DNA from: Pocillopora verrucosa
Lineage: Eukaryota > Cnidaria > Anthozoa > Scleractinia > Pocilloporidae
Assembly: GCF_036669915.1 (NCBI RefSeq)
Contig: NC_089319.1
Coordinates: 2,286,082 to 2,350,081 of the forward strand
Length of the DNA stretch: 64,000 bases
Direction: 5' to 3'
A program made the position numbers and the translations under genes. The notes under the pieces are model-generated. The model saw only the letters and a program-made list of their open reading frames with translations, was not told the DNA's origin and searched no databases. How positions within the stretch are numbered: position 1 is the first letter of the stretch; each line of letters starts with the position of its first letter. Positions 6,636-52,205 of this stretch are shown piece after piece.

Positions 6636-9000
6636 TTATGCCACTGAAGCAATTTCTATAGTTTGGTTGACCCGGTTTCTCGAGGATTTGGAGAAGGACA
6701 TCATTTCCTTAATTTTCTCTCTGAACTGTCTGTTTAACAATGCATACACAAACGGATTGACAGCAGAGTTGAACAACACCATTACGAAAGAAACGGAGAC
6801 TAAGACAGGGCCAATGTTGTAGGATGCAAATTTCCTTAAAACGTAGATGACTGACATGAATCCATAGCAGATCCCAAAAATGACAGTGACAATCATGACC
6901 ATCAAAGTTACTCGTTTCCGCACTCTGTTAACACCCTGTATCAAAAAAACAAAAAGGAAGAAAAATGAGTCAATTCTGTTAACTACTTGTCTGAACCGTG
7001 AGTAATTGTCATCCATATTAATGATAATGGGTAGTTCCATTATTATATACAGAGGTCCTTTGATTGAGCACGCCAAAGAACAAACAATTTTAAACAAGGC
7101 AAATTATCACAAAGTATACTTAGTTTTAATCCAGTGTAACAAGATGTGTCTATGGGATAAAATGATTGATTTCATTCGCTCAACAAAACTCGCCGTTTCC
7201 GCCATCTTGCTGACGACAAAGTTTCCATCGAGCAAATATTGTTTTTTGTCCTCTTCATTCCACTGCTTGACTAAGCTTCCTTTTAAGTTAGCGAAGGATT
7301 TATTGTTTAGAAAAGATTTTTGAGTGTGTGTGTGTATTTTTTTTTGATGAAGAAAATGGCCTTACTTCTGCAGACCCATCCACCCTCTGTCCTCGCTGGC
7401 CGCTTTACACTTTCTCAATATCTCTAATCACAGGAGGAAATAGGACAAAGATGTCCTTGCTGATCGTAATCTACTCTCGAATCTCCAACATTATATCTCA
7501 TTGCTAAAAAATTCTTTAAAAAAATCAGGAAACCAAGAAAAATTTAACAAAGAGCAAAGAAAGGAGATCACTGGTTGAAGTGAGCTGATATGAAAGACCT
7601 GCTAACTAATTTCTTAACTCTTACCCTCTGTTGACGAGAAAGAGGTTTGAACCACAAAGTGCTTACAACATTGCAGTATAACCCGGCCATGACAATCAGA
7701 GGAAGGACAACCACAAGTAACCAAGCCACACTGTAAGCCTTTGACATCCACTTCTGTGGCCAATTCCATACGCAGAACTGCTTTTTGTTGTCGAAGGTTG
7801 CAGTGAGAAACATGGGAATATTGAATGCAACTGAGAAGATCCAAGAAACCAGGACGATCACCTGAAACAGTTAGCCCGGCATATTTGAACACGACTGAGA
7901 AAATTTCACCGGTGAAGAAATGGCTGATCAAATCAACCATTTCACTTCAAAAAAATTATTTCCATATTGATGATTGATTCTTTGAAATTAAGTTAAATTG
8001 TGTATCAATGACCTTCAGATACCTATAAGAATCTTAGCCAAGATAACAAACAATCTTATCAAAGTCACAAGGAAGTTGTGCAGGTTTGATATGAACGCAA
8101 TAACATTAACCTTTACACACCTTCAACTTAGGCTTCGTCAAGTTCCACCTAAAAGGATAAATCACTGAATAATATCGTTCAACAGCAATTGCGATCAAAC
8201 TGAATATTGAAGAAACTGCTCCAATCCACCCGACGTTTCCACCTGTTACGAATTTGCATAAACCTGCAGCAATCACTCCTTCTGGGTGGAAGGAAGTAAG
8301 TCTGAGAAGAACGGAAGGTGCGATGAAAATGGCGAATATCATGTCTGCAATTGCCAGGTTCACGAGTAGATAGCTTATGAGAGTCCTATAGAAATGATAA
8401 TAGATAAAACAGTCAATAGCGAGACTCAATTGCCACATAACAAAATCCGTTTTAAAGTCGCAAAATTGTCGCTTTTTAAAAACCGTAGGAAATTCATCCA
8501 TTTTATTTTGCCTTCTTTGTCTTTCATTTTCTAGCAATTTCATTACTTTTAAGCCTTGAAATCTGATTAGTTTCTCAGTTAATTTTTCCTTTTTCAATTA
8601 CAGGGGAAAAGCTGCGATTTAGAACAAAAATAATACGATCCGTAACTATATCGCATTGTCGAGAGCAAATCCGATTGCAAGGACGGAATGGAATAAATAT
8701 TGTTATTTCCTTTCGTACAGGAATCAACCTAGGTATCTGTCAAGATATCTGGCGAGCAATTAAACTTTTTCTCTTGTCGCTTACATCGATGAACTTAAGT
8801 TCCTTCCTTTAGCGAGTTATTGTTCATCAAATGCAAAATTATCACATAATATCGTTAACATCATAAATTGGTAATCGTAATAACCTCATGTGTAGGTTTC
8901 TCTTAATGATCAAACACACAACAGAATTTCCTGCGATGTTTACGGAAATGAGTGTGAAAAGTACCGCGTTTATGGCAATGTTAGTCACTGATTCACTCAT
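6636..9000 (-). CDS. GPCR-2: class A peptide-receptor-like GPCR, 4 coding exons
   Basis: Exons are 8885-9000 (ATG at 8998-9000), 8121-8385, 7625-7861 and 6636-6935. Together they give 918 nt, 305 aa, with intron phases 2, 0 and 0 as in GPCR-1. Motifs are GNSVVC in TM1, LVNLAIADMIFAIF in TM2, LCKF and VERYYSVIYPF after TM3, FCVWNWPQKW in ECL2, VRKRVTLMV before TM6, and NSAVNPFVYALLN in TM7. TM6 reads FGICYGF, without the CWxP tryptophan and proline. The second exon is 6 nt shorter than in GPCR-1. The tail ends EIASVA, very like GPCR-3 (EFASLA). GPCR-2 and GPCR-3 are close paralogues, and their TM4-5 exons differ at few positions. The ligand cannot be named from sequence. Confidence 0.88.
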
Positions 9001-21004: not shown

Positions 21005-21916
21005 TTAGTGTACGGGCAATTTTCTCATCATTAACATCACTTTAGAACGGATTTCTCTAATTCGCCAACAGTAGACGAAAGGATTTATAGAAGAATTAAG
21101 AAAAATTACAAAAGATGTTAGATTTGTTGATAACACTACTGGGGAGCTATATCCCAACAATGCTACCCCAACTATGGCACAGAAATAAGGAGTGTAACAT
21201 GCTACAAGAAATCCGAAAACTGTCAGCATACTGTTTACAGATTTACGGTACAGAATCATGTTAAAAGTCTTTCGAGGTTGCCTTGTGGCAGCCTCGTTTG
21301 TTACTCTTGTCTTTGAAGCCCTCAGAGTTTGATATATTCTAAAATAGCACGAAGACGTTATGACAATGGAGGAAAAGCCAAGAATAATGGCACTAATTTT
21401 ATTGATTCGAATATTCCACATTCGGGAGACTGCCCAGATAGAGCTGCAAATCCACAGAAGTACTACAACCAAAGTGACTTTTTTCACGGTTGTAATCAGT
21501 CCGTATCGTATTCTGAGTCTCAACGCCAGATATCTTTCAATGCTTATTGCTGTCGTGGTTGAAAAAGACACGGCACAGAAGAAGTAAGCCACTACAGCAT
21601 AAAACGGCTGAATCGAACAAAACAATTCAAGATTACCGTGGAGAGCCCCCAAAGCTGTGGCAACTTGTAACGGTTGAGCGACCATACCAACTCCAAAATC
21701 AGACAGAGCTAAGCTGTAAAAAAGAGCTTTGGACGACGAAGAAATCGTGCGGCACTGGAAGAGGGCGAGTAAAATTATCGAATTTTCAACAGTTGCAGAA
21801 ATTGAAAAAACCACATTCACAACGCACAAGAACACGTACCAGTGACGAGGCGATTTGCGTATAAACTGGTACTCACGAAAATCTTGATCAGAGCAAGAAG
21901 TATTGTATACTTCCAT
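21005..21916 (-). CDS. GPCR-5: intronless class A GPCR, melanocortin/adenosine-like
   Basis: A single open frame of 303 aa, with its ATG at 21914-21916. A glycosylation sequon NTS lies at residues 5-7. TM1 carries EN at 44-45, TM2 LALSDF with D73, TM3 C100, and the DRY-equivalent ERY is at 127-129. TM4 has a conserved tryptophan, TM6 reads VACYTPY (a CWxP variant), and TM7 has NSSINPFVY (NPFVY at about 278-282) followed by a basic helix-8 segment. The second extracellular loop is very short and has no cysteine, as in the melanocortin/S1P/cannabinoid/adenosine group. It lacks the exon layout of the surrounding receptors and is not part of that array. Intronless receptors of this type are common in anthozoans (general knowledge). 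The ligand is unknown. Confidence 0.9.
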   Translation of the reverse strand: MEVYNTSCSDQDFREYQFIRKSPRHWYVFLCVVNVVFSISATVENSIILLALFQCRTISSSSKALFYSLALSDFGVGMVAQPLQVATALGALHGNLELFCSIQPFYAVVAYFFCAVSFSTTTAISIERYLALRLRIRYGLITTVKKVTLVVVLLWICSSIWAVSRMWNIRINKISAIILGFSSIVITSSCYFRIYQTLRASKTRVTNEAATRQPRKTFNMILYRKSVNSMLTVFGFLVACYTPYFCAIVGVALLGYSSPVVLSTNLTSFVIFLNSSINPFVYCWRIREIRSKVMLMMRKLPVH

Positions 21917-22049
21917 TTAAAAACTGTTTGTAAAATTGCTTGATCGCCTTACGTCTCCGGAGAATTACTAAAAGTTTTAGAGGCTCAGAGAGATTGTCAG
22001 CTTATCCCCATAAAGATGTTGTGCCTGATGTTTCGAGGTTTAATTAAAA

Positions 22050-22960
22050 GTCTTTATACACCTATTGATGGTTTTTCCATGTCAACATGAACAAAGGAGA
22101 TGTCAATGGCGCCAATCAGATTCAAGCTTTTGACTTTCAACTAAAAGGAAAATATTCATCAAGCCAGCGTTGTTTTATTTTCCTCTAGAGATCCGGGAAG
22201 AAATTAGTTAATTGACGACAATGAAAACGAGGGGTATGTAATTGCGATTGTACTAAAGAGATGCACAAATGTTTGCGACTTCGCAAGTATGATTACTCTG
22301 AATTGCAAAATGCTGTACCTCTTGCTAAGTACCGTATGAATTAAGTCTAACTGTGTTCATGAGAAAATGAAAAAATGATCGTCAATCAATAAAATTATCG
22401 TACTTTTCTAAATTGCTCACGAAATGGCCCTATTTTTTTACAGCACGTGTAAAAGCCAGATCTGATTACGCTGTTCTGACGCATTTCATTGAAGATTCAA
22501 TGTCGTTAGTTGTGCAGTAGTCGGCGGTTGGAGCCCAATTTCACAAATTGTGCTCAAACTCGCCAACCACTATTCTACTTACCATATTATGGTTATTATT
22601 TGATAAAATTATACTATAATAAAGACATAGAACTTCGAGAACCCAAGGATGTTTTCATTTCTCAGAAATTGACGAACTACTCACGCACGACGTCATTGAA
22701 TAAACAGGAACTTGCTGACTCATCCATGGGACTTTCCTGAGGAAGTTGTTCGTCGCATTTATATAGTCCAGCTGGCATCGACCAAAAAAAAAATTCGTTC
22801 AAATTAATGATAAAAGCATGAAACTTTGCTACAACACTTATGACCCTAAGACTGACATTTTCTGATATGGGGTCGATTCAAAATAACTTCTGGAGACGAG
22901 AACCACGCATGGGAATTCTGTTATTGGTATGCTGGAAGCTTCATCTTTGAACTTACTAAT
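22050..22960. repeat. Dispersed repeat, tandem copy 1 (copy 2 at 23280-24940)
   Basis: Matches 23280-24036 continued at 24711-24840. Shared phrases include GGTTTTTCCATGTCAACATG, GGCGGTTGGAGCCCAATTTC and TCTGGAGACGAGAACCAC. The last 140 bases are also found, inverted, near 32520-32645. No open frame of note. Confidence 0.75.
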
Positions 22961-24036
22961 TACTTCCTTGTTTGTTTTATCGAAATATCATGAGTATTCT
23001 GGATATTCGCTGTCGAATTTATTTTCATCGCTTCAGAGGTCTTTTTAAACGTCTTCGATTTCGATTTCATAAGTTAGACTGTCTGTATCAGTAAAGAGTA
23101 ATTTTCTTCGCTGTTGTGTTTGTTTTGATGTCATTTGCAATGGAAATCGTACATTAATGTTCTAGAAAGATCTAGAATGCTCATTCCTACGTGTAATGAC
23201 ACGGGGAACAACCAGGATAAGAAACTGAGACGTTGAGCCTTGCCGCAGTTTTACTCGCAATTTTATATTTAATAATCTATATACACTCATCGATGGTTTT
23301 TCTATGTCAACATGAACAAAGGAGATGTTAATGGCGCTAATCAGATTCAAGCTTTTGACTTTCGACTGAAAGGAAAATAAACATTAAGCCAGCGTTGTTT
23401 TATTTTACTTTGACGATCCGGATCACAATCGGAAAGAAGTAAGTTAATTGGCGACAATGAAAACAGGGGGATGTATAATTGTAATTGTGGGTGTTTTTTT
23501 TACCACGCAGACACCTGTTTCTTTGGACTCGATGATTAAATGTGTGCGACTTCGCATGAATGTATATTCTGTGTATTGCAAAACGCTGTACCTCTTGCTA
23601 AGTACCGTATGAATTAAGTCTGACTGTATTCATGAGAAAATGAAGAAAATGATCGTCAATTAATAACTTTATTATACTTTTCTAAATTGCTCTCGTCATT
23701 GTCCTCTTTGTATTTTACAGGTCGAAATGAAGTTTTCGTTAGTAGTACAGTAGTTGGCGGTTGGAGCCCAATTTCACAAGTTGTGTTCAAATTCGCCAAC
23801 CACTGTTCTACTTACCATATTATGGTTATTAATTGGTAAAATCGTACTAAAATAAAGACAAAGAATTCGAGAAATCCAGGATGTTTTCATTTCTAAGGAA
23901 TTGACGAACTACCCACGCATTGACGTCATTGAATGACAGGAACTTGATGCCTTACCAATAGAACTTTCCTGAGGAAATTGCTCGTGACATTTAAATAGTC
24001 CAGCTGTTATCAACCAAAACACTAAATCGTTCAAAT

Positions 24037-24711
24037 AAGTATAGGCAATAGAAGCAAAGCGCGCGCATCAACTGCAAAAATAATTTACTCAAAGCCTGCA
24101 AGTGACTTTGTGCGTTCGGTCAAAACAACCGTGTACGATCAAAACAATAATATACAATAGTATTTTGACATCTTCAAGGCGCAAAAAAGTTCAAAGTCCG
24201 GCTAAACAGTATAAGGAATTGTTCAGTCTGCGTCAGAATCACTTTCGATGAAATGGAATCATCGTTTCCGCGGTTTCACCATGTTTGTTTTTAATTTCAG
24301 CGTAGTATCGCTCGAACAGAGTGTTAAGCTGGGTCGGCTCGTAATTTTCGATTTCCTTGGCAATTCCCTTCTCTGAACACCACTTTTTCCAAACCGAAAA
24401 CCAAAGAGCAATGCTTTTTACAATGGTTTCGTTGTTAGAGCTGTTTTTCAGCTGCTGTATTGTTGTTGAGGTAGCGAAATAAACCTAAATAAATGCCGGC
24501 CATTGTTTTGCTCGCAAATTTTCAGCGCATCCAAATGTTGCGATATCCAAGGCCCGCACTCAATTGGCTATCTGTGAGTTTCTTTGTTTATTGACCAATC
24601 AGAATGTCTGGTTTGTTACATCTTTGCACTGAATTAACTCTCTTCTGCACTGAATTACCTGAAAACTGCATTTATCCTAACCAATCAGAATTGAGTGATT
24701 TTTTTATATTC
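24037..24711. mobile_element. Insertion of about 675 bp carrying a recombinase-like exon fragment
   Basis: Defined by comparison with the uninterrupted copy at 22050-22960. It has no obvious terminal inverted repeats and contains the exon-like frame at 24239-24484. Its right part holds the phrase CCAATCAGAATTG, which I associate with short coral repeats. Confidence 0.5.
24239..24484 (-). pseudogene. Exon-like fragment resembling the N-terminal part of Crypton-type tyrosine recombinases
   Basis: After an acceptor (TTTATTTAG, exon start 24484) the minus strand is open for 81 codons to a TGA at 24239-24241. The text has a run of aromatic and charged residues (ALWFSVWKKWCSEKG, then LNTLFERYYAEIKNKHG). 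The pattern of a tryptophan-rich helix followed by LxxLFxRYYxEI resembles the N-terminal SAM-like region of Crypton-derived recombinases. That family is recalled from pattern only, and no catalytic region is present. It may equally be another transposon-derived protein. Confidence 0.35.
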
Positions 24712-26151
24712 ATTATTAATGATAGAGGCATGAAACGTTTTACAGCACTTATGACCCTACGACTAACATTTTTTCATATAGGTCCAATCCAAGTAAACTT
24801 CTGGAGACGAGAACCACACATGTCAGAAATTCACTAACATGGCTAAGAATGAAAATCCTCTTAAATGACAAATGCTTTCCAACATAGCCCATGAGTCATT
24901 TTCTAACCATTTGTATTCATCTTATCCCATCATGAGACTATCTTTGATATTTATCACAATATTTGGGTACCCTGTGGTCAAATATCGATGATGAATGGTG
25001 TGTGAAATATAAGAAAACAATTGTAGCGATACGAAACAACATGGCTCTGAAGTCCCGCTCATGGGTCACAAAGCTTAAGAGTAAATGTCAATAAAAATCA
25101 CAGATTATCGAAAAAGTCGCGGACACGGTCGAAAATCGATTTGGTTCATTTTTTGCCTGTGGGTAGTCTTATCTAGTAAACAAAAGGAAATGGGGTTAGA
25201 TTTTTGAAATATGCACTTTAGCGGGAATAATTTGCTTTAACATTTCCGGGGTTAAATAGCTCAAATTTCACCAAGCGCGATCCTGAAATTATGCACTTTT
25301 CGAGCACTTGTCGTGCTAACAAAAATGTAACGGAAGAACTTTTCTAGTTATAGAAATATTGAGTTGGACTTGCATTATCGAGGCAAAGTGACAGTTTTTG
25401 TCACATGTTATTCTTGGCGGAGCTACGTCCCTATTAAGAGACGACATCTTCGGCCTTTTGAAATTAAGGCAAAGGTGGCCTAGAATAGCTTGGCAAAAAT
25501 ACATGTGGTAGTGTCTCAAAGTTTACAATAACACTACCAAGAAGCCTTGAAAGATAGTTCTTTACGATTTGGGTTTTATTTCTTTGGGACCTTTGACTAT
25601 CAAAAGATGACCACCAGCCGAATTTCGGTTAAATTACTATGACGCCATAATGAGATGCATAATAACAAAATTAAATGCGTTGGACACAAATAACTGTTTT
25701 GGTCAGTTATGTCTTCACACTAAATGACTAGAAACATATTAAAATGTCTATAACTACACTTATCTACGGAGACAGGAGAAACAATTTTCGACTTTGCTAC
25801 CCTGAGAATCACGCCATAATTCTGCATAATCTATCACACAACAGGTTAAACAGTTGAATTGCACTCAACAGGTTAAATGTGGCTCAAAGCCGTTAGTTTA
25901 CGTTTACTTCTCATCCGGTGAACATGGATTCGAGCATTTGCATCCCCTCTGCGCCTTCTACACTCGCCAGTTTCGAATATACTGAAAATCGTCCAACACA
26001 AAGGTAAGAAGGTTTCACAAGCAGTGGTGGGCTCGAGTGACTGAAATCCGATATGTAGGACTCTGCTGTCACGCAACGCCTTCTTGTAAATAATACACGC
26101 ACCGCTTTTATGATCAGCGGATCAGTTACTCGTAAAACGTTCAGTGCTCAG

Positions 26152-29100
26152 TTACTTGGAAGAGCAGGTACACTCTTGGACTAATTGTGTGAGTCGTGCG
26201 ATGAATGGCTTTTTCCTCTTTTGAGGTGAAATGTCAGAAATATCCAGCCCAAGGTCGACGCACGTGTCTCTTAGCCTATCCACTCTTAAAGTTGTGATTG
26301 TACGTTTTTGTACAAGTTCGCAGATGTTAAGATCGAAAGATACAATCGGATGCTGAATAGCCACATCTCTCATCACATTTGCACACACTGCAGATAGATG
26401 CTTCTCAGCTTCGGCGGAGATTTCGTCCTCGTCGACGCTCCCCATATCCACTTCTGAGACTTCACTAGCTTTTGCTTCGTTATCGGCGGCTGTAACTTCT
26501 AATCGCTTCTTTCCTGAAAGACGGCTGAAGAAGCCACTAATCTGCTGCGACGTAAGGACTTCATAAGGTTGAAATCGGCGTTCCCCCGCTTGGTCTCTTG
26601 CTAGGCTCATGGTTTTCGAAACTTCCTGTGGATCGCTTTTCCGTCCACTATACTCCCCTTTTTGAAATTGGTCAGTTAAGAATTCGGTCTGTTCCTTTGT
26701 AAAACGCACCTTTTTCTTAATTTTCTTCAGGGCCCAACCCATTGGAAGAGGAGGCAAGCCGTCACGCTTTGATTGTGCAGCAATTTGAACGCTTGGTATT
26801 CGACTGCGTCCCTCCGTCAGCTTGGAAGAATATTCTCTTTTAGCTTTATCGTAGAGAGTTTCCTGTTCGAGCATCATTTGGTGTTTTCCAGTATCTAGGT
26901 GTGTCTGGAGGTTTGCAAAGCGACTGTATGCTTTTACACATCCTTCTTCTGGACACGGGAAAAGCATGTCATCTGGCTTATATTCCCCAATACAGCGTCG
27001 ATCTTGGTTTTCGCTTTCAGTTGAGAAATCTGTTTTGACAGAGCTTTTCTTAATATGTCGGTGTCCCACAATCTTGAACGTCGGTGAACCACTTGGATTT
27101 GGCGATAGCGGGTCTAGGATTTCCAATTTTTCGGGCTGCTTCATGACTCCTTCGAACTTGGCCCATGGCACTACTTTACCGGAACCCACATTGAATGCTC
27201 TCCACACTCGTACGCCACTTTCATCGTACTCAAAATTGTTGAGTAAGCTTATGCCATCCCATTTGATATTAAAGGTGCATGACGGTTTGGCAGTAACATA
27301 ACTTGCTTTCACTCCTGTGGTTCCTTGGCCAGATTCAATGGCTGTTTTGAACTGTAGAGCGTTGATGACATCATTGCCTTCGTTTACGTACCTTCCAACG
27401 TCTCCCTTGATTGTTGCCGCTTTGCGATCACATACCCCCTTTCCACCTTGAGGGTCCGAAAAGTCGTTTCTTACAACAGCCACTCCCACGGCATCACCGG
27501 CCAGCTTAGCTGAGATGATTGAATTTCCGCTGTGATAACAGCCAGCGTTATCTTGTTTGTAATAAGCCATTTCCAGCTCTGGAATTTCCTTTTTCAGGGT
27601 AGTGAGGCAGTCAAGCATTATCAAAGCCACAGTCACACTGTCTTGGGCGCAGCTTTGGAATACGTGAACAAGTGTTTGCGATTCAAAGTGCTCAGAATCC
27701 TCTGACCGTCTTATGGCAACGCTAATGTGCCATGGCAATCCTCGCTTCGCAAACCAATCTGACTGTGCCTCTCGATATTTTCGGGGCATATATTTCATTG
27801 CCCAGTCCTGGACTAACAGCACCGATCGGCTGTCGAGTTTGGCTAAAACTGAATGCTTTGCCTCAGCTTGGTGGACTGAACGTAGCTGATGGGCTTTCCA
27901 GCTGATGATATCATCCCTTGCCTGTTTAATGGTATGCAGCATGTCAGCTTGATCTTCTGCTGACGAGAGCGCACTTGAACACTCATCTTCTATGGTACAC
28001 AATACTTCTTGTAAGTCATAACACTGTTCACATGACTCATTGTGGAGATGGTCGCAGGAGCCCCGAAATTCAGCATTGCTTGGGTCACTTAGCGCGAAAA
28101 TTCGACAATGATCGGGAACCTCACAGGCCTCCACTGCATGTACCTAAAATAAAAAGTAAAATGACGAGCGCGTGATGCAGTGTATAGTTGCAAAGCAACG
28201 CATGCGCATATGATCGACATTTCAAAAAGATTACTTAACCGATTCTCAGCGTTGTATACATGTGTGTAAGCGTATTACAGTGAATTTTAAACTGTTGTTT
28301 CATAAATTAAGCATAAAGAAGACTTGGAGGGAAAGAAAGAGGTAGCCGTGAATCATAGTAAGAAGTTTACTGCATTTGCAAAGGCAACGCATAATTATAA
28401 AATATGCACCCACTTTGTAGTCGCCCTTTAGGTACTGCTTCGACAAACGAAGTTGCTGCTTAATTTCCCTCGCCCATTGCTGAGTCTTGCCACAGTCAAC
28501 AAGCTTATCTACGAGTTTTTCTAAAGCATCAAATGCTTCCACCCCTGATGCTGAAAAGTTATCAAGTCCTTGCAGAGACTTCCGAACAGATGAAGAACAC
28601 ACGGCCAAAACTCTCTGTAGCGTTCTCTTACTCATAGGCTCAAAGTTGGTTTCACAGCAGTATTGTTGATACTGCTGAACAATACGCTCTGGTATCATTG
28701 TTCTGATAACATTGGGTGTTTTTATGATCTCGCCAGTCGACAATTTCAGAAGTTTTTTCCCGAAAGGAACATCTTGAATAACGTGTGGACTTGTTATAAA
28801 AGAAACAAAATGTTCTAATTTTACAGGTTCAATTCTCATTCTCCTTTTCTCCTGGTTTGGAAGAGGAGCAGCTCTTCCATGTATCAGCCTGTGGCGTCGG
28901 GCAATGTTGTAGCGATAGCTAGTAACGGTTGGAATAAACTCCCTCATCTCCTTAAGGGATAACTTGTCTGCCATCAAAGAATGTATTTGCCGTCTGGTGC
29001 TCCAATGTTGTGCGTTCAAGTAGCTTTCAGCAAATGCATTAAGAAGGTCCGTCTCTTTTTCACTTCTGCCCTCGACCACAACCTGACTCTCGTTACATAC

Positions 29101-29484
29101 AGCGTAACGATCACAAAGCTCCGTCCACAGTTCTTGCGAATTTTCAGGTGCCAGGACATCCAGCATTGCAGAAATACATTGTTGAGCTTTCCGTAGGTAT
29201 CTACGTTTAGTACGCTCGTGCGCTGTATTCCACGGCACTGATAACGTGTGACGTACTGGACTGACGTCTCGAAGGTGTAAGAAGCGATTTAGCTGCACCT
29301 GGGACTCGTTGTCTAGACTCGAGCTTTCATCACTCTCTTCGCAATCTTCTTGCGGAACAAATAGGCTCTGCCGTTTGGATGTGAAACCTTCTGGTAATGT
29401 TTCATCACCAACAGTGACAGCACAAGTGGCAGGAATATCAGAGTCACTCCCTTGTTCATCAACCTGACGAAAAAGTGAACACAT
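26152..29484 (-). CDS. Two-exon gene, C2H2 zinc finger protein with transposase-like (RNase-H-fold) region
   Basis: Exon 1 is 28414-29484 and exon 2 is 26152-28143. The donor (TACAAA then GTGGGT) and acceptor (TTTTATTTTAG) join in frame to about 1,020 aa. The frame is open back to 29523, but the first ATG is at 29482-29484. Exon 1 begins with an acidic serine-rich stretch, then a helical region ending MIPERIVQQYQQYCCE. In exon 2, cysteine/histidine-rich text (CEVPDHC, CDHLHNESCEQC) precedes LLVQDWAMKYMP (27790-27815), YKQDNAGCYHSG (27530-27560) and SDPQGGKGVCDRKAA with NEGND downstream (about 27370-27440). The two aspartates and the later glutamate could form a DDE-type site (inference). A C2H2 finger (CPEEGC to HLDTGKH) lies at about 26880-26957. 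The C-terminal VRFTKEQTEFL to LTSQQISGFFSRL segment may be a helix-turn-helix. The frame is intact over 1,000 codons, which suggests recent activity or domestication. Confidence 0.7.
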
Positions 29485-29539
29485 TGCTTTGGATGGCTTC
29501 AAAATGAGATCAACCGTATACACGCGCGGGGTGTCGCAT

Positions 29540-30544
29540 GCAAGGCGGAAGTTTATAGTCGATGATTATTTTCACCTTATAATATAACTGACTAATAACC
29601 TATTCTGATATCTTTATCCAATTACTTCTCAGTATTATTTTCCATTTGGAGCATTTCGAAAAAAAAATGTGGAGAAGCCATATAATAATTTAAAACCTTT
29701 ATTATTTGGACATATCCTGGAGTGTGAAATGCTATCTGGGTAGGGCACGCCTATCCAATTCTTGTGCCATGTATGGTTTTGCCAAGTCGTTGACGGGCGC
29801 AATGGCGGCGTTTGAGCATGCGCATGCAAGTTAGCCTGGACACGCCCTTCTCCCACCTGGGTTGAATCCCTAGGCATGAAAAGGGCGGAGAAGGGAGAAT
29901 TCAGAGAATGCGTTAAGGTTTTCCATTTTTATTAATTATATTGGATGGAAATTCTTCATAACACTTTGAAGAAACTCACCAAGGTTAGACCACTTAGACC
30001 TTCTGTGATGTTTTCCACACCTCCTGTGGCCTCCAAGCTCTGCGACTGTAACTGATTTTTTATTTTTGCTAGGGACTGTCGACATCGCACACAAATTCCT
30101 TTAATATTTTGAGAGAAAGAATTAATTTATACTTTTAACCTTGCACATCCTCCTTGAACAAATAGCTCTGCATGTGGCAAAGAAAAAAACTAGGCAAAAG
30201 CCCCACAAATCCCAAACTGATGACGCATTCTGTAGTTAACCTTGTCACGAGTCAGTATTTTACATTCCGTTCCTTTTTTGTCGGCATTTTTAAAAGGAAT
30301 TCTAATATCTGTGAAGATTTCAATTAGAGCGTTCTCCACGCCACTAATTAATTTTGACAGGAGCCATCACTGGTTTTGAACAAATTTTGAAAGAGACGAA
30401 AATGTTGAGTGAACGCCAGTGTTTTCCGACGTAAAAATATTTGCAAAAATCCTGAAAAGACATGAAAATAAATTTCCTGTCAAACTTGGCGACTGTTTTA
30501 CGCGACAGTGAAGTGGTTTGAGTGGTAGTTCATGCAAAGACGGC
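29540..30544. other. Upstream flank of the zinc finger gene, no other gene seen
   Basis: Only short frames without motifs. The region between the first ATG and the inner right inverted repeat would hold the promoter and any non-coding first exon. None can be pinpointed. Confidence 0.4.
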
Positions 30545-31059
30545 CTGAAAACTGCATAATTTAGAGCTCGCACGCACTCATTTTCGATCATGCAATTAGT
30601 AACGGTTTATTTTCGTTAAAATGAATATTTACACAAACTAACCTCACATCACTTTAAGTAATACCTATAGCTACCTGTAAACAAAAAAATGAGACAAAAC
30701 GATTTTTGACCGTGTCCGTGATTTTAAAATTTTTCTTTGATTTTTAGAGACATTCACTCTTAAGTTTTAACATCAGGGCCGATGAATCGTACAGCTTTCA
30801 AGATGGAACACTGTCTTTTATTCATTCATTCAGAATGTTCAGAGACATGTGTGTCCTTCTATTCACGCATCCAGGTTGTCAAAACTGTTCACAATGTTAC
30901 AAAAATCGGTGAGGAACAGCACAACTCGTTTAATTGTCAATCAGCGGTTCGTCGAGAGAAGCAAGCCTGTTACACAACCTCTCAAGAAGAATAATCTTCC
31001 CACTTTCACTTCGACGAACAAGAAGACAGTTTCAAAAAAAAAGGCGAAAATAGGAGTTT

Positions 31060-32130
31060 TGAAGGAAGACTGTGCTTTATTTTTGCGGCTTTACATAGCA
31101 AAGGAGTCAAATATAATCTTAAATCGTAACAAGAAAATCGCAGAGGAAGTTTTACCAGAAAGCCAGTGTGGCTTCAGGGCAGGCAGATCTACTATCTATG
31201 TGATATTCACATTACGACAATTACAAGAAAAAGCAATTGAAAAAATCAGCCCCCCTACATGATTTTTGTTGACAATTCCAAGGCCTTCGACACGGTTGAT
31301 CGGAAGACACTTTGGAAAGTTCGGAAGCTATATGGTCGCCCTTAGAAAGTAGTGCAGATCATCAAGCCCTTCCATGAGGGAATGGCAGGTGCTGTTAGGA
31401 TCGCCGGAGACACAGGTGAACCCCTTCACTATCAATCACGGTGTCAAGCAAGGCTGTGTACTGACACCAACCCTCTTTTCTCTCTATCTTGCGGCTGTCC
31501 TAGAATCAATGTGTACCAACCTCAATTCAGGAGTGTTCATCAAGACAAGAACAGATGGTAAACTTTTCAACCTTGCCAGACTCAGAGCTTCTGCTAAAAC
31601 AAGGGAAATCTGTGTAAGGGAGTTATTATTTGCCGATGATTCTGCCCTTGTTGCAACAAATCCTACTGTCATCCAAGAAATTGCAGACAGGCTCTCCTGT
31701 GCCGCTCGCCACTTTGGCATGAAAATAAATGTGTCTAAAACAGGACTGCTCTATCAACCGGTCATGTGTGTCGTATGTCTGACAACAGAATCCCCAAATA
31801 TGTGTTTTATGGAGAATTCAGCTCTGGAGGGAGAAAACGCGGTGGACAAAAACTGCGCTTCAAAGATGCATTGAAGAGATACACGAAGAATGTGGGAGGA
31901 AGAAGCAATGGACAAAAAGAAGTGGTGATCAATGGTCCATTAAAGCATTGCCGCTGTCGAACGGAATCGTTTCAAGAAATATCAAGCAGCTCACAACAGG
32001 AGGCTCACACCAACAACTGATGGTCTTAAATGCAACCGTTGCACGCTGGATTTGTAGCGCATCAACGCTCCTACAGCACGTAACCGTTTCTCAGTCAACA
32101 TCGCCTGCAGTGGACTGCCGCCGCCGATGA
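31060..32130 (+). pseudogene. Decayed LINE (non-LTR retrotransposon) reverse transcriptase and C-terminal region
   Basis: Reverse transcriptase blocks appear in order: LPESQCGFRAGRSTI, then FVDNSKAFDTVDRKTLW, then INHGVKQGCVLTPTLFSLYL, then the catalytic LLFADDSALVA. They are split by a stop after about 31343 (YGRP then TAG) and by frame changes near 31250 and 31390. Soon after KINVSKTGL the text jumps to a C-terminal segment ([16 protein letters not shown], then LKCNRCTL in another frame). The middle of the normal protein is therefore missing. It is clearly inactive and lies between the inner and outer right inverted repeats of the candidate transposon. Confidence 0.85.
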
Positions 32131-32136
32131 AATAGC

Positions 32137-32370
32137 GTGTCAATTCATGATGGAAACTTGAAAGACTTCTTCAAGTATGAGAACCAACCATGGCCGCCAT
32201 CACTTTCGCATCTTGGACAGCTTAGAGGAGGACAGAAGGCAGACTTGGTGAAGTGTTTGCCCAACGCATCAGCACAGATCGCAACTCAACCAGTAGCTGA
32301 TGCAGTTATTCTTGATGGAGCTGTTGATGTGCATATGCTACAGCCAAGAACAGCATGCACCTTTGACTAA
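32137..32370 (+). pseudogene. Fragment of a transposon-associated open frame, unidentified
   Basis: The frame ends with GQKADLVKCL and then VILDGAVDVHMLQP before a stop. This resembles a motif I associate with repetitive uncharacterised proteins in cnidarian genomes. It has no defined start and overlaps the end of the decayed LINE. Function unknown. Confidence 0.25.
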
Positions 32371-32685
32371 TAGTCACGTAATGGTATAAGATGAATACGA
32401 TTGGATAGAAAATGACTCAGTGGTTATGTTTGAAAGCTTTTGTCGCAAATTTCCCCAAGCAATGTCTTTTAAGAGGATTATTTTTTCCTAGCCTTGTTGT
32501 CATGTTAGCAAATTTCTGCCATGCCTGGCTCTCGTCTCCAGAAGTTAATTTGGATCGGCCCTGTATCAGGAAATGTTAGTCTTATGGTAATAAGTGTTGT
32601 GGCAAAGATTCAGGCTCTTATCGTTAATTTGAACAGTTTTGGTCGACAACCTTTAGACTATAAAGGAAGTGGGAGAGTAAAGCAG

Positions 32686-34045: not shown

Positions 34046-36129
34046 ACCAAAAGCCAAATTGACCAGCAAATAGACTATAGGTGTTCTAGAAATAAAAGGG
34101 ATTCTTTATCTTACTTCAAAGTTTCAAATTCATCTGTCTCTTAATTTCACATGTCACAAATTATATTTTCAAATCCTAAAATAAAACAACGGAACCTAAC
34201 ATATCTTCCATCTTTTCAAACAGATATAGAAACTATTTTGCAGTTGGTTTTAACAGCGCTTAGAACTAATGCCTCTCTTACAATTCTGATATATATTCGA
34301 TCCTTCAGAAGTTATTTATAATCAAGATAAACGTATATTGGATATCACCGCTTTCTATTGTAGTGATTCCCTTCTTCGAGACTTGATAGCAATAAAGAGA
34401 TAAAACAAATAGGCTGAGAAGACGGCTTCTTCTTACAGCACTTTTTTGCAAGACGACAAGAAACATGTTGTAGGCGTGGTTTTTGTAGACTTTCGTAAGG
34501 CGTTTGACGCAATTCCCCACTCCATTCTGCTCCGAAAACTTCAAAGTCTTGGTGTAGCTGGGGACTTGTGGTGTTGGATAAGAGATTACCTCTCTGGAAG
34601 AACGCAAGTAACGACGATTAATGGGTGTCAATCTCAAGCTATGCCAGTTACTTTTGGTGTACCTTAAGGGTCGGTGCTGGGCCCTACCCTGTTTTCCATC
34701 TTCTGTAATGATCTGCCCAATATCACTGAGGGAATAGATGGTGACCCACAGCTTCACATGTACGCAGACGATACCACCGTCTATGTCTCAGCTCCGACCT
34801 ATGATCTGGTGGCCTCCAAGTTGAATGAAGTACTAGCAAGGCTATATACATGGTGTTGCGAGAACTGTCTCACTCCACATCCCACCAAGACGGAATATAT
34901 ATTGCTTGGTGGACGCGGAAAATTTACTGGGCCAAAACAAGCTATTAAGATAGGTGATTATGTTGTCGGGGAGGTTGTTTCTGCAAGATGCCTAGGTGTT
35001 CAGATAGATAATGCTCTTAAATGGGATCATCATGTATCGGAATTAGCTAAGTCATATACGCAGAAGTTGAATTTACTTAAATCCTTGTATTTCCTTCCTA
35101 TACAGGCAAGAATTGATTTCTATTTTAAGGTTATTCTGCCGTCTGTGACATATGGTATGTTAGTTTGGGGCTCTTGTGGTCGAGTATTTTTCTCAAGCTT
35201 AGAATCTATACATGTTAGAGCGGCGAAAATAATATTTAACTTGGATTGGTGTACTCCAAGCAAGGAGGTTCTTGCCACAGTAAAATGGAATACCTTAGAG
35301 ATTATGTATGAGAAACGATTACTAATCTTAGCGCATCAGGCTTATTATAATCTTTTGCCACGTCCTATGAGCCGTCACTTTGAAAAGTATGTAAGTAGCT
35401 ACGACTTCAGGAGGAAAATGACATTTAAGTTACCTAGACCTAAGACCGATATGGTCAAGAAATCATGCTCATACAAGTCAATTACTCGGTGGAACGCTCT
35501 GGAAAATCAAATGAGATCAATTCAAGACGTTGACGCTTTTAAAAAGTCACTCAAGTGTATTTTTAAGCCACGTATGTTATAATGATGTACTATGTAGAAT
35601 TTTTATTGTTGAAAATATGTAGAAATCTTACATTAGTCTTCTTATAATTAGTTAGGAATTTAGTTTTATTGGATTTAGTTAGGAATTTAGTTTTTATTGT
35701 CCGTACACGACCACATCAGCTTTTGCTGAATTTTTTATCGTGTTTAAATAAATGCTGTTGTTGTTGTTGTTTTATGTTTAACTCGAGAATAAATATATTT
35801 GTAAGTTATCAATAATATACAAACAGAAGTGTTTTTTCTTTCTCGTTCGCTGCTTCAATCGTCTAAAACATATGTAACAGGATCTACCCAGGGTAATAAA
35901 ACACAGCTTGGTCTCTAAGAAGTTCGATTGATCGCAAAGAAATGTATTTCAAAGAAAATTGCTGTAAGTTCGAAGGAGAGAAAAGAAGCTCAAACTCCTC
36001 CTTACTGGCCCACTTCATTTCTTGGTTTTTAATCAGAACAACACAAACCAGGGTGTTTCCCACGATGTCTGTGATTACCAGCTCAGAAAACATAAAAGCG
36101 ATCACGGTCTGGGCTGAATCGGTCAACAT
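34046..36129 (-). pseudogene. GPCR-6: truncated class A GPCR (TM1 exon and start of TM2 exon only)
   Basis: The TM1 exon 36014-36129 is open and reads MLTDSAQTVIAFMF to GNTLVCVVLIKNQEMK. Its donor has changed from GAG then GTGAGT to GAA then GTGGGC. The next exon begins correctly after AG with RTPIVYLLVNLAFG, but homology to the intact genes stops at 34046 and a stop codon follows. All of TM3 to TM7 is gone. The truncation point lies about 90 bases from the Penelope-like remnant, which may have caused it. The remaining intron was hit by LINE-2 (34429-35773). It is closest to GPCR-7 to GPCR-9. Confidence 0.85.
34429..35773 (+). mobile_element. LINE-2: 5'-truncated non-LTR retrotransposon in the GPCR-6 intron
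   Basis: Open text from 34446 gives VVGVVFVDFRKAFDAIPH, SLGVAGDLWCWIRDYLSGR, and, after one in-frame TAA at about 34665 (VP then stop then GSVLGP), the catalytic MYADDTTVYV. The RNase-like and C-terminal text ends KCIFKPRML at 35582. The 3' end has a TTG microsatellite (35755-35773), as in the L2/CR1-type LINEs. The host junctions are exact. GPCR-9 reads GAGAAGACGGCTTTTATG uninterrupted at about 54835, while here the element sits between GACGGCTT and TTATG. With one stop codon only, it is a young insertion. Confidence 0.88.
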
Positions 36130-45599: not shown

Positions 45600-46008
45600 C
45601 AAGTCCATGTCCAGTGATGGACTTGATCCAGTGTTTCATCGAAGGTTTATCCTGGTCCCGTGACATGTAAACATATTCCAGATATCCCGGTTCCACGAAA
45701 TCTCGGATAATTTTAATGCTGACCCCAAGTGAAATTTCAATTGACTGGACTTCCCCGAGAAAGATCTTTGACTAAATCTTCAGTCTAAAATAGCTTTTCT
45801 CTTGTTAGATCCACGCTAGTGATCTGTTTTTGACATATAGAGCAGATCAGTGTAACTCCGTGTTGGCTCAAAGACTTAGCATCTCCCTAGATGGTCGAAG
45901 TATTTATCCCTTTTATTCTCGAGGTCTCATTGCCTCTTCCCATGGCATGAACTCTGTTTCTGTCAGCACCACTACCATGGCAACTCAACAGAGCCTTAAT
46001 ATGCTTCC
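45600..46008 (-). pseudogene. Broken C-tail exon of a GPCR-7/8-type receptor
   Basis: The minus strand carries the end of the last exon (VEPG tail region at 45640-45725), then about 125 unrelated bases, then the preceding tail segment and the start of helix 8. The match to intact genes ends abruptly at 46008 within the tail, where the next duplicon begins (CTGCTATACATCGAC). The stop codon of the tail is also altered, since text continues past the usual end. Confidence 0.75.
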
Positions 46009-46816
46009 CTGCTATACATCGACACTCGGAACACTATCTGTCTAAAGGTAATCTTCATGTGTCAAAGAAAACAATATAATCTACATTATGTAAAGATCAA
46101 GATGGACTCTTCTCTGCCAAACTATCAGTCAAGCATATTTATCACAAAAAAGCTAAGAAACGAGCTGTCAATTCTTAATAGACCAAAGAACCTTAATGCA
46201 TATTTTTTGAATCGCACTTTCACTTTGGGGATTCTTTATTCGTGCACTTCCAACGTCAGGAGTCGTTTGTAATCGTCTCACAAGTATGCCTTCGTTCTTT
46301 ACATTCAGGCTACTCGTACTTTTCTCCCGCCGCAGTTTCTAACTCAGTATTCTCTTCATCTAAACCCTCCCAACCGATTTTACATGAATACGTTGTAAAG
46401 CAAAACCGTTTTTTATTATGTTGTTTATTTATCCAATCTATAATCGTTTTGTTTATTTGATATGTTTGGTTTACCTTTAGAATCTAATGACCTTGGCTGA
46501 GTAAAAACGTGCTTTTTATAAGTTTGATGCAGGTGGCTTTATTTGAAGAGAACGGAAGGTGTAAAAGAGACTTCAAGACAACATTGTTTTTGACACAAAA
46601 CATCGACACAAGCTATAGCGTTCATTTTTTTCTAGCTTAAACGTGCAGGTGCACGGAAGACTAGTTTTAGCTGTTAATCATATCACATGTTACAGTATCC
46701 TCTATGTATCATTATCATTTAATCTTGTTTATCTCCGGCTCTTGGTCTGTGTTACTGGACATGGACTTGATTCAGTGTTTTACCGTAGGTTCATCCTGGT
46801 TTAGTGTTATGTAAGC

Positions 46817-49803
46817 TTATTCCGAATCTCCCGGTTCCACGGAATCTCGGATAGTTTTAAGAGTAACTGTGTGTCGGCTCAAAGACTGAATATCTCCCTG
46901 GATGGTCGAAGCATTAATCCCTGAATTTGTTCTCGAGGTATCATTGCCTCTTCCCATGGCATGAACTCTGTTTCTGTCAGCACCACTACCATGGCAACTC
47001 AACAGAGCCTTAATATGCTTCCTGAAGCGACTGTTCACATAGGCGTAAATAAAAGGATTAACCGTTGAGTTACACACCACTAAAACAATGGAAATGACAT
47101 CAGCTGCGTCACCAAGGCTATGCTTGGAGCCGAAGTGTATCATGGCATAGATGACGAGGTCTGGAGTCCAACAGAGTCCGTAAATGATGCTAACTGCAAC
47201 GACCATTTTTGTGACGTGCTTACGCACTCTCATGACACCCTGAAGCAAAAAATTGCAAAACAATATTTCAAATTCGGTTGATGCTTTGATTTTGACAATA
47301 GGATTCAGTTTCACTTTGAGGAGCTTCTGGGAAGATTAGTCGCTAAAAAAAACAGTCGTTCTCTTCAGTAGTTATCCCCCCCAGGGAACTTACGCAATCA
47401 TAATAGTTTTCATAACTATGTATGGTTACCATTCCTGGCGGCGCCATACTTCCTATTGATCATAACATGTTCGTAATTGGTTTCGGGTTTCCTCTCGAGG
47501 TTATTCGAGGGCGATTTCAGCCTATTGTTAAACATTACAAACGAGTAGCTAATATAAAGAGTTTTCAAAGCCTGTTCAGAGTAATTGCTCCGCAACCTTT
47601 CGCGAAGTAATCGTGTTTTTCTTTTATCTTCCTTCATCAAGTGAGCACTGCCAATTTTTAAATGGCACTTGATTTAAAAATCTTATTACCTTGGTCTACT
47701 GAATCTAGTTCGTCGACAAAAACAGAAAAAAAGAAAACATTTTGCTCAAATATCTTCACTCACAGACTAGCTTTGAGTAATGACATTTGGAGAAAAACTT
47801 GATACGGTATCAATTCAATGCGTTGTATTTTAGTTACCTGTTGAGTTCCACTAACACGCTCTTCACCTTTGATCCACAGAGAATAGATAACTTTAGAGTA
47901 CAGGCCTATCATGATCAACATTGGCAGAGCTCCAAGCAGCACAAACCAAGCTACACTAAAAGCCTTGGGCATCCATTCCTCAGGCCAGTGCTCCGTACAA
48001 AATTCGTTTTCTTTATCGAAGTAGGACGTCAAAAAGAGAGGTGTGTTTAAAATCAAAACAGAAATCCAAAGAACAGGGATTATAACCTGTAGGAAGGTTT
48101 CAAACCAAGCTTTATTGAGCGTTTTACAGTGGTGGCACTACTGACTTGTGCTCTTTTTACTACTTGTCGGACACTAAAACTCTTAGAACGACAGATATAA
48201 CCACTTGATAAGAATTACGAAAATTTACTTATCTTGAAATATTTTTCACCTTATTTAAGCTTTGACATGAAAAACAAAATATGCTTTTTTTTCTGAGACA
48301 AATCTTGGATCTCTGAGATCCATAGAAGCAGATCCAAGAATATTTTAAGGGGAGGTGGGCCACCTCCCTTTAAAATATTCTTGGTCTGCTCTTGTTTTTC
48401 ACGAAAACAGAGACACAATTGAAGAATATCAACTTTCTCTTTTGTTAGCGTAACAAACATGGCGCTGAATAATTATGGGCGCTAACTGATTGATTTTGAG
48501 CCTCCTATCAGACAAACAATAGATCAAACAGAGTCTGACGACCTGTATGACTACGTGCAAAGTTCTTTATCGTCAAACTTTACGTCATTAGGTGCGAGAG
48601 TGATGGCGAAGATGAAGATTAGTTTTTCCTATGCCTCTTTGAGCGGCTTGACTCCTTTTTTTATTTTATTTGAAGGTTTAAAACAAAGAAACAGAGTAAA
48701 CGGATTGGAATTTGCATTCTTTTTCAAAACAGGAATTTAAAAGCTGAAGGTTTTATCTTGGTGCAGGAAATGAATCGCTCTTAATTATAAATTTTCTTAA
48801 ACAGAAAACAGCATACTCACCTTAAGTTTTCCATGTGTCAGTTTCCCTGCGTTACTGTAAGGATACATTACAGCGAAGTAACGCTCAAATGCAATAGCAA
48901 CTAAGCTAAACGCAGATGCAGTTGCTCCTGTCCACATCAAGTTTCCCCCGGTCAAGAATTTACACAGGAATGATCCTACAATTCCGTCAGGATGCTGGAA
49001 AGTGTGGATCAGAACAAACTGTGGCGCTATAAACAGCGCTACCATGATATCAGCAAAAGCCAAATTGACCAGCAAATAGTTTATAGGTGTCCTAGAAATA
49101 AAAGTGCTTTTTTATCTTACTTCAAAGTTTCAAGTTCCTCTCTTTCTCTAAACTTCACATGTCACAAATTATATTTTCAAATCCCAAAATAAAACAAAAG
49201 AACATAACAAATCTTCCATTTTTTCAAAAAGACATAGAAACTATTTTGCAGTTGGTTTTAACAGCGCTTAGAACTAATGCCTCTCTTACAATTCTGATAT
49301 ATATTCGATCCTTCAGAGGTGATTTATAATCAAGATAAACGTATATTAGATATCACCTCATCCTCTAAAAGTGATTCCCTACTTCCAGACTTGATAGCAA
49401 TACAGAAATGAAACAAACAAGCTGAGAAGACGGCTTTTATAGTCAACTCGAGAGTAAATATATTTTCAGGTTATCAATAGTACACAGACAGAAGTCGTTT
49501 GAAGTGTTTTTTCTTTCTCGTTCACTGCTTCAATCGTCTAAAACACCTGTAACTGGATCCATCCAGGGTATAAAACACAGCTTGGTCTGTAGGAAGTTCG
49601 ATTGATCGCAAAGAAACGCATTTAAAAGAAAATTGGTCTGAGTTCGAAGGAGAGAAAAGAAGTTCAAACTTCCCCATACTGACTCACCTCATGTCTTGAT
49701 TTTTAATCATAACAATACAAACCAGAGTGTTCCCAACGATATCTGTGATTACCAACACAGAAAACATCAAAACGATCACAGTCTGGGCTGAATCGGTCAA
49801 CAT
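46817..49803 (-). CDS. GPCR-8: class A peptide-receptor-like GPCR, 4 coding exons
   Basis: Exons are 49688-49803 (ATG at 49801-49803), 48821-49091, 47838-48086 and 46817-47239. They make 1059 nt, 352 aa. The motif set is as in GPCR-7: GNTLVC, FADIMVALF, LCKFLTGGN, AFERYFAVMYPY, FCTEHWPEEW, GLCWTPD and NSTVNPFIYA. The last exon encodes the same 140 residues as in GPCR-9, with one silent change seen. The TM2-3 exon instead has SNAGKL and MYPY, unlike GPCR-7 and GPCR-9. A leader exon ends at 50040 with a good donor (ATTAAG then GTAAAG). The gene appears intact. The receptor couples an unknown ligand, presumably to G proteins at the plasma membrane. Confidence 0.9.
48327..48390. repeat. Intron hairpin, copy in GPCR-8
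   Basis: Same palindrome as at 39404-39470, with one arm showing GGTCTGCT instead of GGATCTGCT, in the intron between the TM2-3 and TM4-5 exons. Confidence 0.75.
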
Positions 49804-50837: not shown

Positions 50838-52205
50838 GTAACATGTACAAATAATGACAGTTCATTAGGATACGTATGTTTCCTACTGTAGATTAGCCTT
50901 TGGCACTTGTATTATTTAGATGTCAAACGATTTCAAATTTCACAAACAAAAAAAAGGAAACCAATAGATACAGAGCAAGGATATTACTTTTGCTACATGA
51001 TTACTCACACGATCAAAGTTTGCTTTACGATTTCAAGATCGACTTGTACGTCGGTAAACTTTTACGATTTGTTACAAAAAATTGTCTAAGTTAAGTCCTA
51101 TAGAAAGTCTAAAACCCGAAGCCATCCAGACGCGACCTTCTTGTATAAGAACATTCTGGAACATTCTATTTCTTATGTAATTACTCAGATTTAGAAACCG
51201 TGTTAATCTACTAAATTTAGTTCTTTAGAGAAGTTTCTAGATCCTTGTGCTTTATGTATATAAGAGCGATAGTTTCATAAAAAAAAACAGAGAAGTGTAA
51301 AGAAGCTTGGCGCTGTATATTCGAGAAGTCAACTGCGTGAAAATAAATCAGTTTGTTGCTGTTACCGACGATCCTGAGTTTTGTCTGGGAACAACCCTGC
51401 TATACATCGACACTCGGAACACTATCTGTCTAAAGGTAATCTTCATGTGTCAAAGAAAACAATATAATCTACATTATGTAAAGATCAAGATGGACTCTTC
51501 TCTGCCAAACTATCAGTCAAGCATATTTATCACAAAAAAGCTAAGAAACGAGCTGTCAATTCTTAATAGACCAAAGAACCTTAATGCATATTTTTTTGAA
51601 TCGCACTTTCACTTTGGGGATTCTTTATTCGTGCACTTCCAACGTCAGGAGTCGTTTGTAATCGTCTCACAAGTATGCCTTCGTTCTTTACATTCAGGCT
51701 ACTCGTACTTTTCTCCCGCCGCAGTTTCTAACTCAGTATTCTCTTCATCTAAACCCTCCCAACCGATTTTACATGAATACGTTGTAAAGCAAAACCGTTT
51801 TTTATTATGTTGTTTATTTATCCAATCTATAATCGTTTTGTTTATTTGATATGTTTGGTTTACCTTTAGAATCTAATGACCTTGGCTGAGTAAAAACGTG
51901 CTTTTTATAAGTTTGATGCAGGTGGCTTTATTTGAAGAGAACGGAAGGTGTAAAAGAGACTTCAAGACAACATTGTTTTTGACACAAAACATCGACACAA
52001 GCTATAGCGTTCATTTTTTTCTAGCTTAAACGTGCAGGTGCACGGAAGACTAGTTTTAGCTGTTAATCATATCACATGTTACAGTATCCTCTATGTATCA
52101 TTATCATTTAATCTTGTTTATCTCCGGCTCTTGGTCTGTGTTACTGGACATGGACTTGATTCAGTGTTTTACCGTAGGTTCATCCTGGTTTAGTGTTATG
52201 TAAGC

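Follow-up and report, generated by a model that had tools for sequence, protein, structure and literature searches.

The window analysed here is a stretch of 64,000 nucleotides from Pocillopora verrucosa (contig NC_089319.1, positions 2,286,082 to 2,350,081), numbered from its first letter. On the reverse strand, at 25075..30763, it carries a DNA transposon copy with a multi-exon gene for a candidate transposase. The copy measures 5,689 bp counting the TTAA on both sides, and its limits are the points at which close copies on other contigs cease to match it. Taken as a whole, the locus is very probably explained by a TTAA-targeting DNA transposon; the window copy is a recently moved but damaged element, relatives of which are still intact elsewhere in the P. 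verrucosa genome.

Element and termini

The two TTAA of the target duplication lie at 25075..25078 and 30760..30763, so that the element reads TTAA-GAGTAAATGTC ... GACATTCACTC-TTAA. The left terminal inverted repeat (25079..25672, forward strand), on the 3' side of the gene, starts with GAGTAAATGTC and pairs with the opposite end of the full-length copy C12a along roughly 600 bp (65% identity). The right one (30526..30759, reverse strand), on the 5' side of the gene, reads GAGTGAATGTC inwards and has lost its inner part through an internal deletion. Full-length copies measure 7.46 kb, and the window copy is about 1.78 kb shorter; judged against them, the deletion junction is at 30521..30526 and exon 1 is missing together with the region upstream of it.

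For the boundary comparison, ten copies were fetched with their flanks from the genome (353 Mb, 52 contigs). Six of the seven close copies are homologous to the window DNA from 25075 up to 30762-30767, which are the tips of the inner repeats; the seventh copy, C5b, gave no clear left end in this comparison. Beyond these common boundaries the flanks are mutually unrelated. Eight left ends, that of the window included, can be printed as TTAAGAGTAAATGTC, again with unrelated flanks. The exon-4 protein has at least 80 coding matches in the genome, many of them with stops, and three among those listed are full-length, stop-free and 97-100% identical. The left-end sequence gave 25 genome matches, 22 of which extend to the tip. 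Two left-end matches, C1:31948930 and C6:5833497, have no coding match nearby among the matches listed and are possibly non-autonomous copies.

The sequence-only reading of this DNA had proposed a transposon at 24711..32645 bounded by two nested pairs of inverted repeats. A DNA transposon is indeed present, with dispersed copies elsewhere that have the same ends and a target duplication, but the mobile unit is 25075-30763 and includes the inner pair only. That pair is well above background, as had been supposed: 25070-25230 and 30607-30768 align at 71% identity and 77.9 bits, against a maximum of 28.3 in 200 shuffles. A larger element joining a repeat at 22797 with 32634 was also considered and was dropped because the copy comparison fixes the ends at 25075 and 30763.

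Target site and empty sites

TTAA adjoins the left end in all seven copies of the same subfamily, the window among them. A further 15 left ends were inspected with their flank, and 12 have it too. Two pairs among the 15 (L045/L046 and L052/L054) have common flanks and are probably duplicates, which leaves TTAA at 10 of 13 independent left sites. On the right, CTC-TTAA is found in eight of nine ends.

The copy C12b, on contig 12, interrupts a repeated sequence. When its flanks were joined by a single TTAA and searched genome-wide, four other loci matched over 296/304 bases at 97-98% and two more gave a match that spans the junction; the other two of the eight matches are the flanks of C12b itself. 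All six loci have one TTAA and an ungapped junction. Since the uninterrupted relatives of the site carry a single TTAA, the insertion duplicated it. For the window insertion no empty site was found among three relatives of the older surrounding element described below, whose matches miss the junction, and the joined flanks of seven other copies gave no uninterrupted second site among the fetched sequences, only those of C12b having been sought genome-wide.

Gene structure

Two stop-free frames on the reverse strand, 26152-28143 (663 residues) and 28300-29565 (421 residues), give 1,020 codons once a GT-AG intron is removed, while the longest open reading frame over 200 first-order shuffles of the stretch was 343 residues (mean 131). 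These frames and their junction had been recognised in the sequence-only reading, which took them for a gene of two exons. The predicted gene has four: in C12a and C1a four exons are spliced to an uninterrupted protein of 1,188 residues. The window retains exons 2, 3 and 4, all on the reverse strand, and exon 1 falls within the 1.78 kb that is missing at 30521/30526.

Exon 2 (30098-29980, GICVRCRQSLAKIKNQ...) is placed by its splice sites and is also present in C12a, C1a, C1b, C12b and C7. Exon 3 (28414..29463) has the acceptor ttttcgtcag/GTTGATGAA and the donor AAA/gtgggt. The ATG at 29484, formerly given as the gene start, sits in an intron, with exon 3 beginning at 29463. Exon 4 (26152..28143), which includes the stop, holds a Cys/His cluster, the presumed catalytic core, a C2H2 finger and homeodomain-like and SAP-like regions. 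The exon 1 proteins of C12a and C7 are 57% identical over 116 residues, so exon 1 looks like a genuine part of the gene. Directly upstream of exon 1, C1a and C12a carry two tandem 200-bp copies that are 99% identical (element positions about 930-1330, gene strand), and C1b has a single one; this may be a promoter or a recent duplication.

Protein motifs

Conservation was judged from an alignment of 14 rows, consisting of the window exon 4 together with 13 diverged homologues that the same genome contains. The motifs pointed out previously (QDWAMKY, QDNAGCYHS, GGKGVCDRKAA and NEG) are all present in the sequence. Near the start of exon 4, a Cys/His cluster (H12, C13, C30, H32, H34, C38 and C41 in exon-4 numbering; 28021..28110, reverse strand) is invariant in all 11 rows that cover it. 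Three aspartates, all on the reverse strand and each conserved in 13 of the 14 rows, are presumed to be catalytic: D113 in QDWAMKY (27805..27807), D198 in QDNAGCYH (27550..27552) and D239 in GKGVCDR (27427..27429). The exceptions are L035, for both D113 and D198, and C7, for D239. Position 230 (27454-27456, reverse strand), which is D or E, is an alternative third catalytic residue.

Crude secondary-structure propensities give a strand with D113, two strands, a mixture of helix and strand, a strand with D198, a further strand and a short helix signal at D239. This order is compatible with an RNase-H fold, which it suggests weakly. There is also a putative C2H2 zinc finger (26881..26961, reverse strand; PF00096, E=0.038, below the Pfam cut-off), followed by a homeodomain-like stretch (E=0.17) and, in one member, a SAP-like end (E=0.22); all three matches are below or near Pfam noise. 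Pattern scans of viral contigs and prokaryote genomes gave no relatives outside P. verrucosa.

A DNA transposon with a predicted DDE/DDD-like transposase is well supported, because the copies are dispersed, have common ends, duplicate TTAA, conserve the acidic residues and, in the case of C12b, can be compared with empty sites.

Related subfamilies

Related subfamilies have the same kind of ends, and the inverted repeats vary in length and symmetry within the family. In C12a, of the window's own subfamily, the two repeats extend for about 600 bp and are 65% identical. In C7, which is 60% identical, they reach about 1.35 kb with 84% identity, and the ends are TTAAGAGT..ACTCTTAA. C5c is about 40-43% identical, is 9,610 bp long and ends with TTAAGAGCAACGGTC...GACCGTCGCTCTTAA (TTAAGAG...CTCTTAA). 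In C10 one such end was seen, and the other was not found within the fetched stretch.

Outer inverted repeats

The outer pair of repeats is also real: 24715-24941 (forward strand) and 32370-32628 (reverse strand) align at 71% identity and 141 bits, with a maximum of 22.9 in 200 shuffles. It is not nested with the inner pair in a single unit, as had been thought, and belongs to another element. The arm 24711-24945 has 32 genome matches, one being itself and the other 31 showing 65-85% identity. Three loci with facing arms of this type, about 270-300 bp long, were fetched, and in all three the C12a and C7 transposons gave no match at E<=1e-3. Judged from these comparisons, the outer pair is the terminal repeat of another, older inverted-repeat element that surrounds the TTAA transposon and forms no part of it. 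Its greater age would follow from the divergence of the arms, since close copies have right inner arms with 91-99.6% identity to each other, whereas the identity of the outer arms is 65-85%.

Inside the window copy of this outer element there are reverse-transcriptase remains at 31353-31874 (forward strand; PF00078, E=9.6e-10), and further remains lie at 34668-35582 (forward strand; PF00078, E=4.5e-8). A sequence of about 0.77 kb is duplicated in tandem at 22041-22804 and 23266-24036 with 76% identity, and both of its copies carry the start of a sequence related to the outer repeat, near 22762 and 23994.

Intact copies and selection

Two copies of about 7.46 kb, C1a on contig 1 and C12a on contig 12, carry the intact four-exon gene of 1,188 residues. 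They lie on different contigs in different flanks, and their alignment of 7,467 bases has 5 differences (99.93% identity). The ratio of nonsynonymous to synonymous differences per site (pN/pS) was computed for five pairs, each of the window copy with another. Against C1a and C12a there are 4 and 4 synonymous and 15 and 18 nonsynonymous differences, giving a pN/pS of 1.05 and 1.25 from small counts. Against C7, C10 and C5c it is 0.29, 0.41 and 0.49, the synonymous sites here being saturated. This pattern fits an active lineage under selection in which single copies decay, and not a domesticated gene.

A host gene domesticated from a transposase had been considered at this locus, and the three exons of the window copy do retain an open frame of about 1,050 codons while the neighbouring elements are decayed. 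We regard domestication as highly improbable. The window copy has lost exon 1 and retains both transposon ends and both TTAA, and its differences from the two close intact copies are near neutral; moreover, the family has at least 80 coding matches and 25 left-end matches. A decayed copy on contig 1 is also 99.5% identical to the window copy, which argues in the same direction and suggests that the window insertion is young.

The favoured account, then, is that of a mobile element. The four-exon gene would encode a transposase of 1,188 residues, which would bind the long terminal inverted repeats; its zinc, homeodomain-like and SAP-like regions would most likely make the contact. Excision would take place by an RNase-H-type DDD (or DDE) active site with cut-and-paste chemistry, and the excised element would be joined into a TTAA, giving TTAA on both sides. 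The window copy probably makes no complete transposase, since exon 1 and the 5' region are lost; its two ends remain, however, and intact copies could still mobilise it.

Classification

By its descriptive features the element probably belongs to Sola3, one of the groups of the Sola superfamily. It is filed there because of the TTAA target, the GAG..CTC ends, the long inverted repeats, the size and the published 'Sola-3' elements of Acropora. Sola elements, most of which measure 2-9 kb and some more than 15 kb, are described as having a 4-bp target duplication, a DDD transposase and inverted repeats 11-1124 bp long (PMC10741241); the groups are Sola1-3 (PMC4455052), and for Acropora tenuis an enrichment of 'Sola-3' elements has been reported in parts of the genome (PMC12314368). 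The present element likewise has a 4-bp duplication, here TTAA on both sides in the window and supported by the six empty sites of C12b. Its inverted repeats are long and diverged, its predicted core may be of the DDD type, and its intact copies of 7.46 kb with repeats of about 600 bp are inside the quoted ranges, the family spanning 7.5-9.6 kb.

Several points weigh against this classification, or against the TTAA transposon behind it. The comparison with Sola3 is one of described features. A TTAA target and GAG ends were reportedly given for Sola3 by Bao et al. in 2009; among the passages of other literature that were searched, none states the Sola3 target sequence. Three of the 15 further left ends have CTAA, CCAA or AAAA in place of TTAA, and the right end of C14 reads CTC-TTAC. 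The repeats of C7 (about 1.35 kb) and the length of C5c (9.61 kb) are slightly outside the usual Sola ranges. The exon model is predicted from sequence and splice sites. The third catalytic residue is ambiguous, since D239 is Val in C7 and position 230 is acidic in all 14 rows; these rows are not independent, as three pairs are closely related (C10/L033 94.7%, L036/L038 84% and C5c/L035 76% alike). Finally, Pfam, NCBIfam, PHROGs and PDB sequences gave no transposase match, even with 11 members.

This missing match and the unusual domain set speak for an undescribed superfamily, as had been suggested in the sequence-only reading. It would have converged on TTAA, be unrelated to Sola, Kolobok and piggyBac, still be mobile here, and have a fused architecture of Cys/His cluster, DDD core, C2H2, homeodomain-like and SAP-like regions. 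The missing match says little, since the presence of a Sola model in those libraries is unchecked. The TTAA target, the GAG ends and the long inverted repeats already fit a named group. So does the annotation of Sola-3 in Acropora (PMC12314368), and we consider an undescribed class possible but improbable.

Membership in a divergent Kolobok lineage, with a TTAA target, 5'-RR..YY-3' termini and a DDE transposase, is similarly doubtful. The stated rule for the Kolobok superfamily is TTAA with 5'-RR..YY-3' (PMC9587614, PMC6004289), which the TTAA and the GA..TC termini of the element satisfy, and KolobokD has been reported in cnidarians (PMC9587614). Kolobok is also marked by a C/DxxH signature, placed between the second catalytic residue and the last, and usually by a THAP domain, and ten full-length Xenopus elements tabulated in PMC6004289 all end AG. 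The present element differs in each respect: its ends are GA, none of the 14 rows has [CD]xxH between positions 199 and 238, and THAP found no match at E<=1 in 11 exon-4 members; with C12a's N-terminal exons, C7 exon 1 and the window's exon 3 the result was likewise negative at E<=5.

The TTAA duplication is shared with piggyBac as well. piggyBac elements have CC(C/T)T ends and repeats of 12-19 bp (PMC2872659), whereas the element ends GAGTRAATGTC, has much longer inverted repeats of about 600 bp and gave no Pfam piggyBac match at E<=1 in 11 members. A piggyBac relative is therefore extremely improbable, and Sola3 remains our preferred assignment.

If the Sola3 label is true, the group has intact, near-identical and apparently very recently moved copies, and bench experiments on TTAA targeting beyond piggyBac would become feasible; we know of no experimentally active Sola3 element. 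If it fails, the element would represent one more independent lineage that targets TTAA. In genome annotation, genes of this kind should be entered as transposons and not as C2H2 host genes.

Surroundings of the window

Partial and complete frames that match rhodopsin-family 7-transmembrane receptors are found at 1336-1779, 6636-7103, 8106-8597, 21005-21916, 46817-47335 and 60003-60452 (reverse strand), the matches at 1336-1779 and 6636-7103 being below the Pfam cut-off. The window also contains long tandem duplications, for example 46007-48665 and 51395-54046, which are 96% identical.

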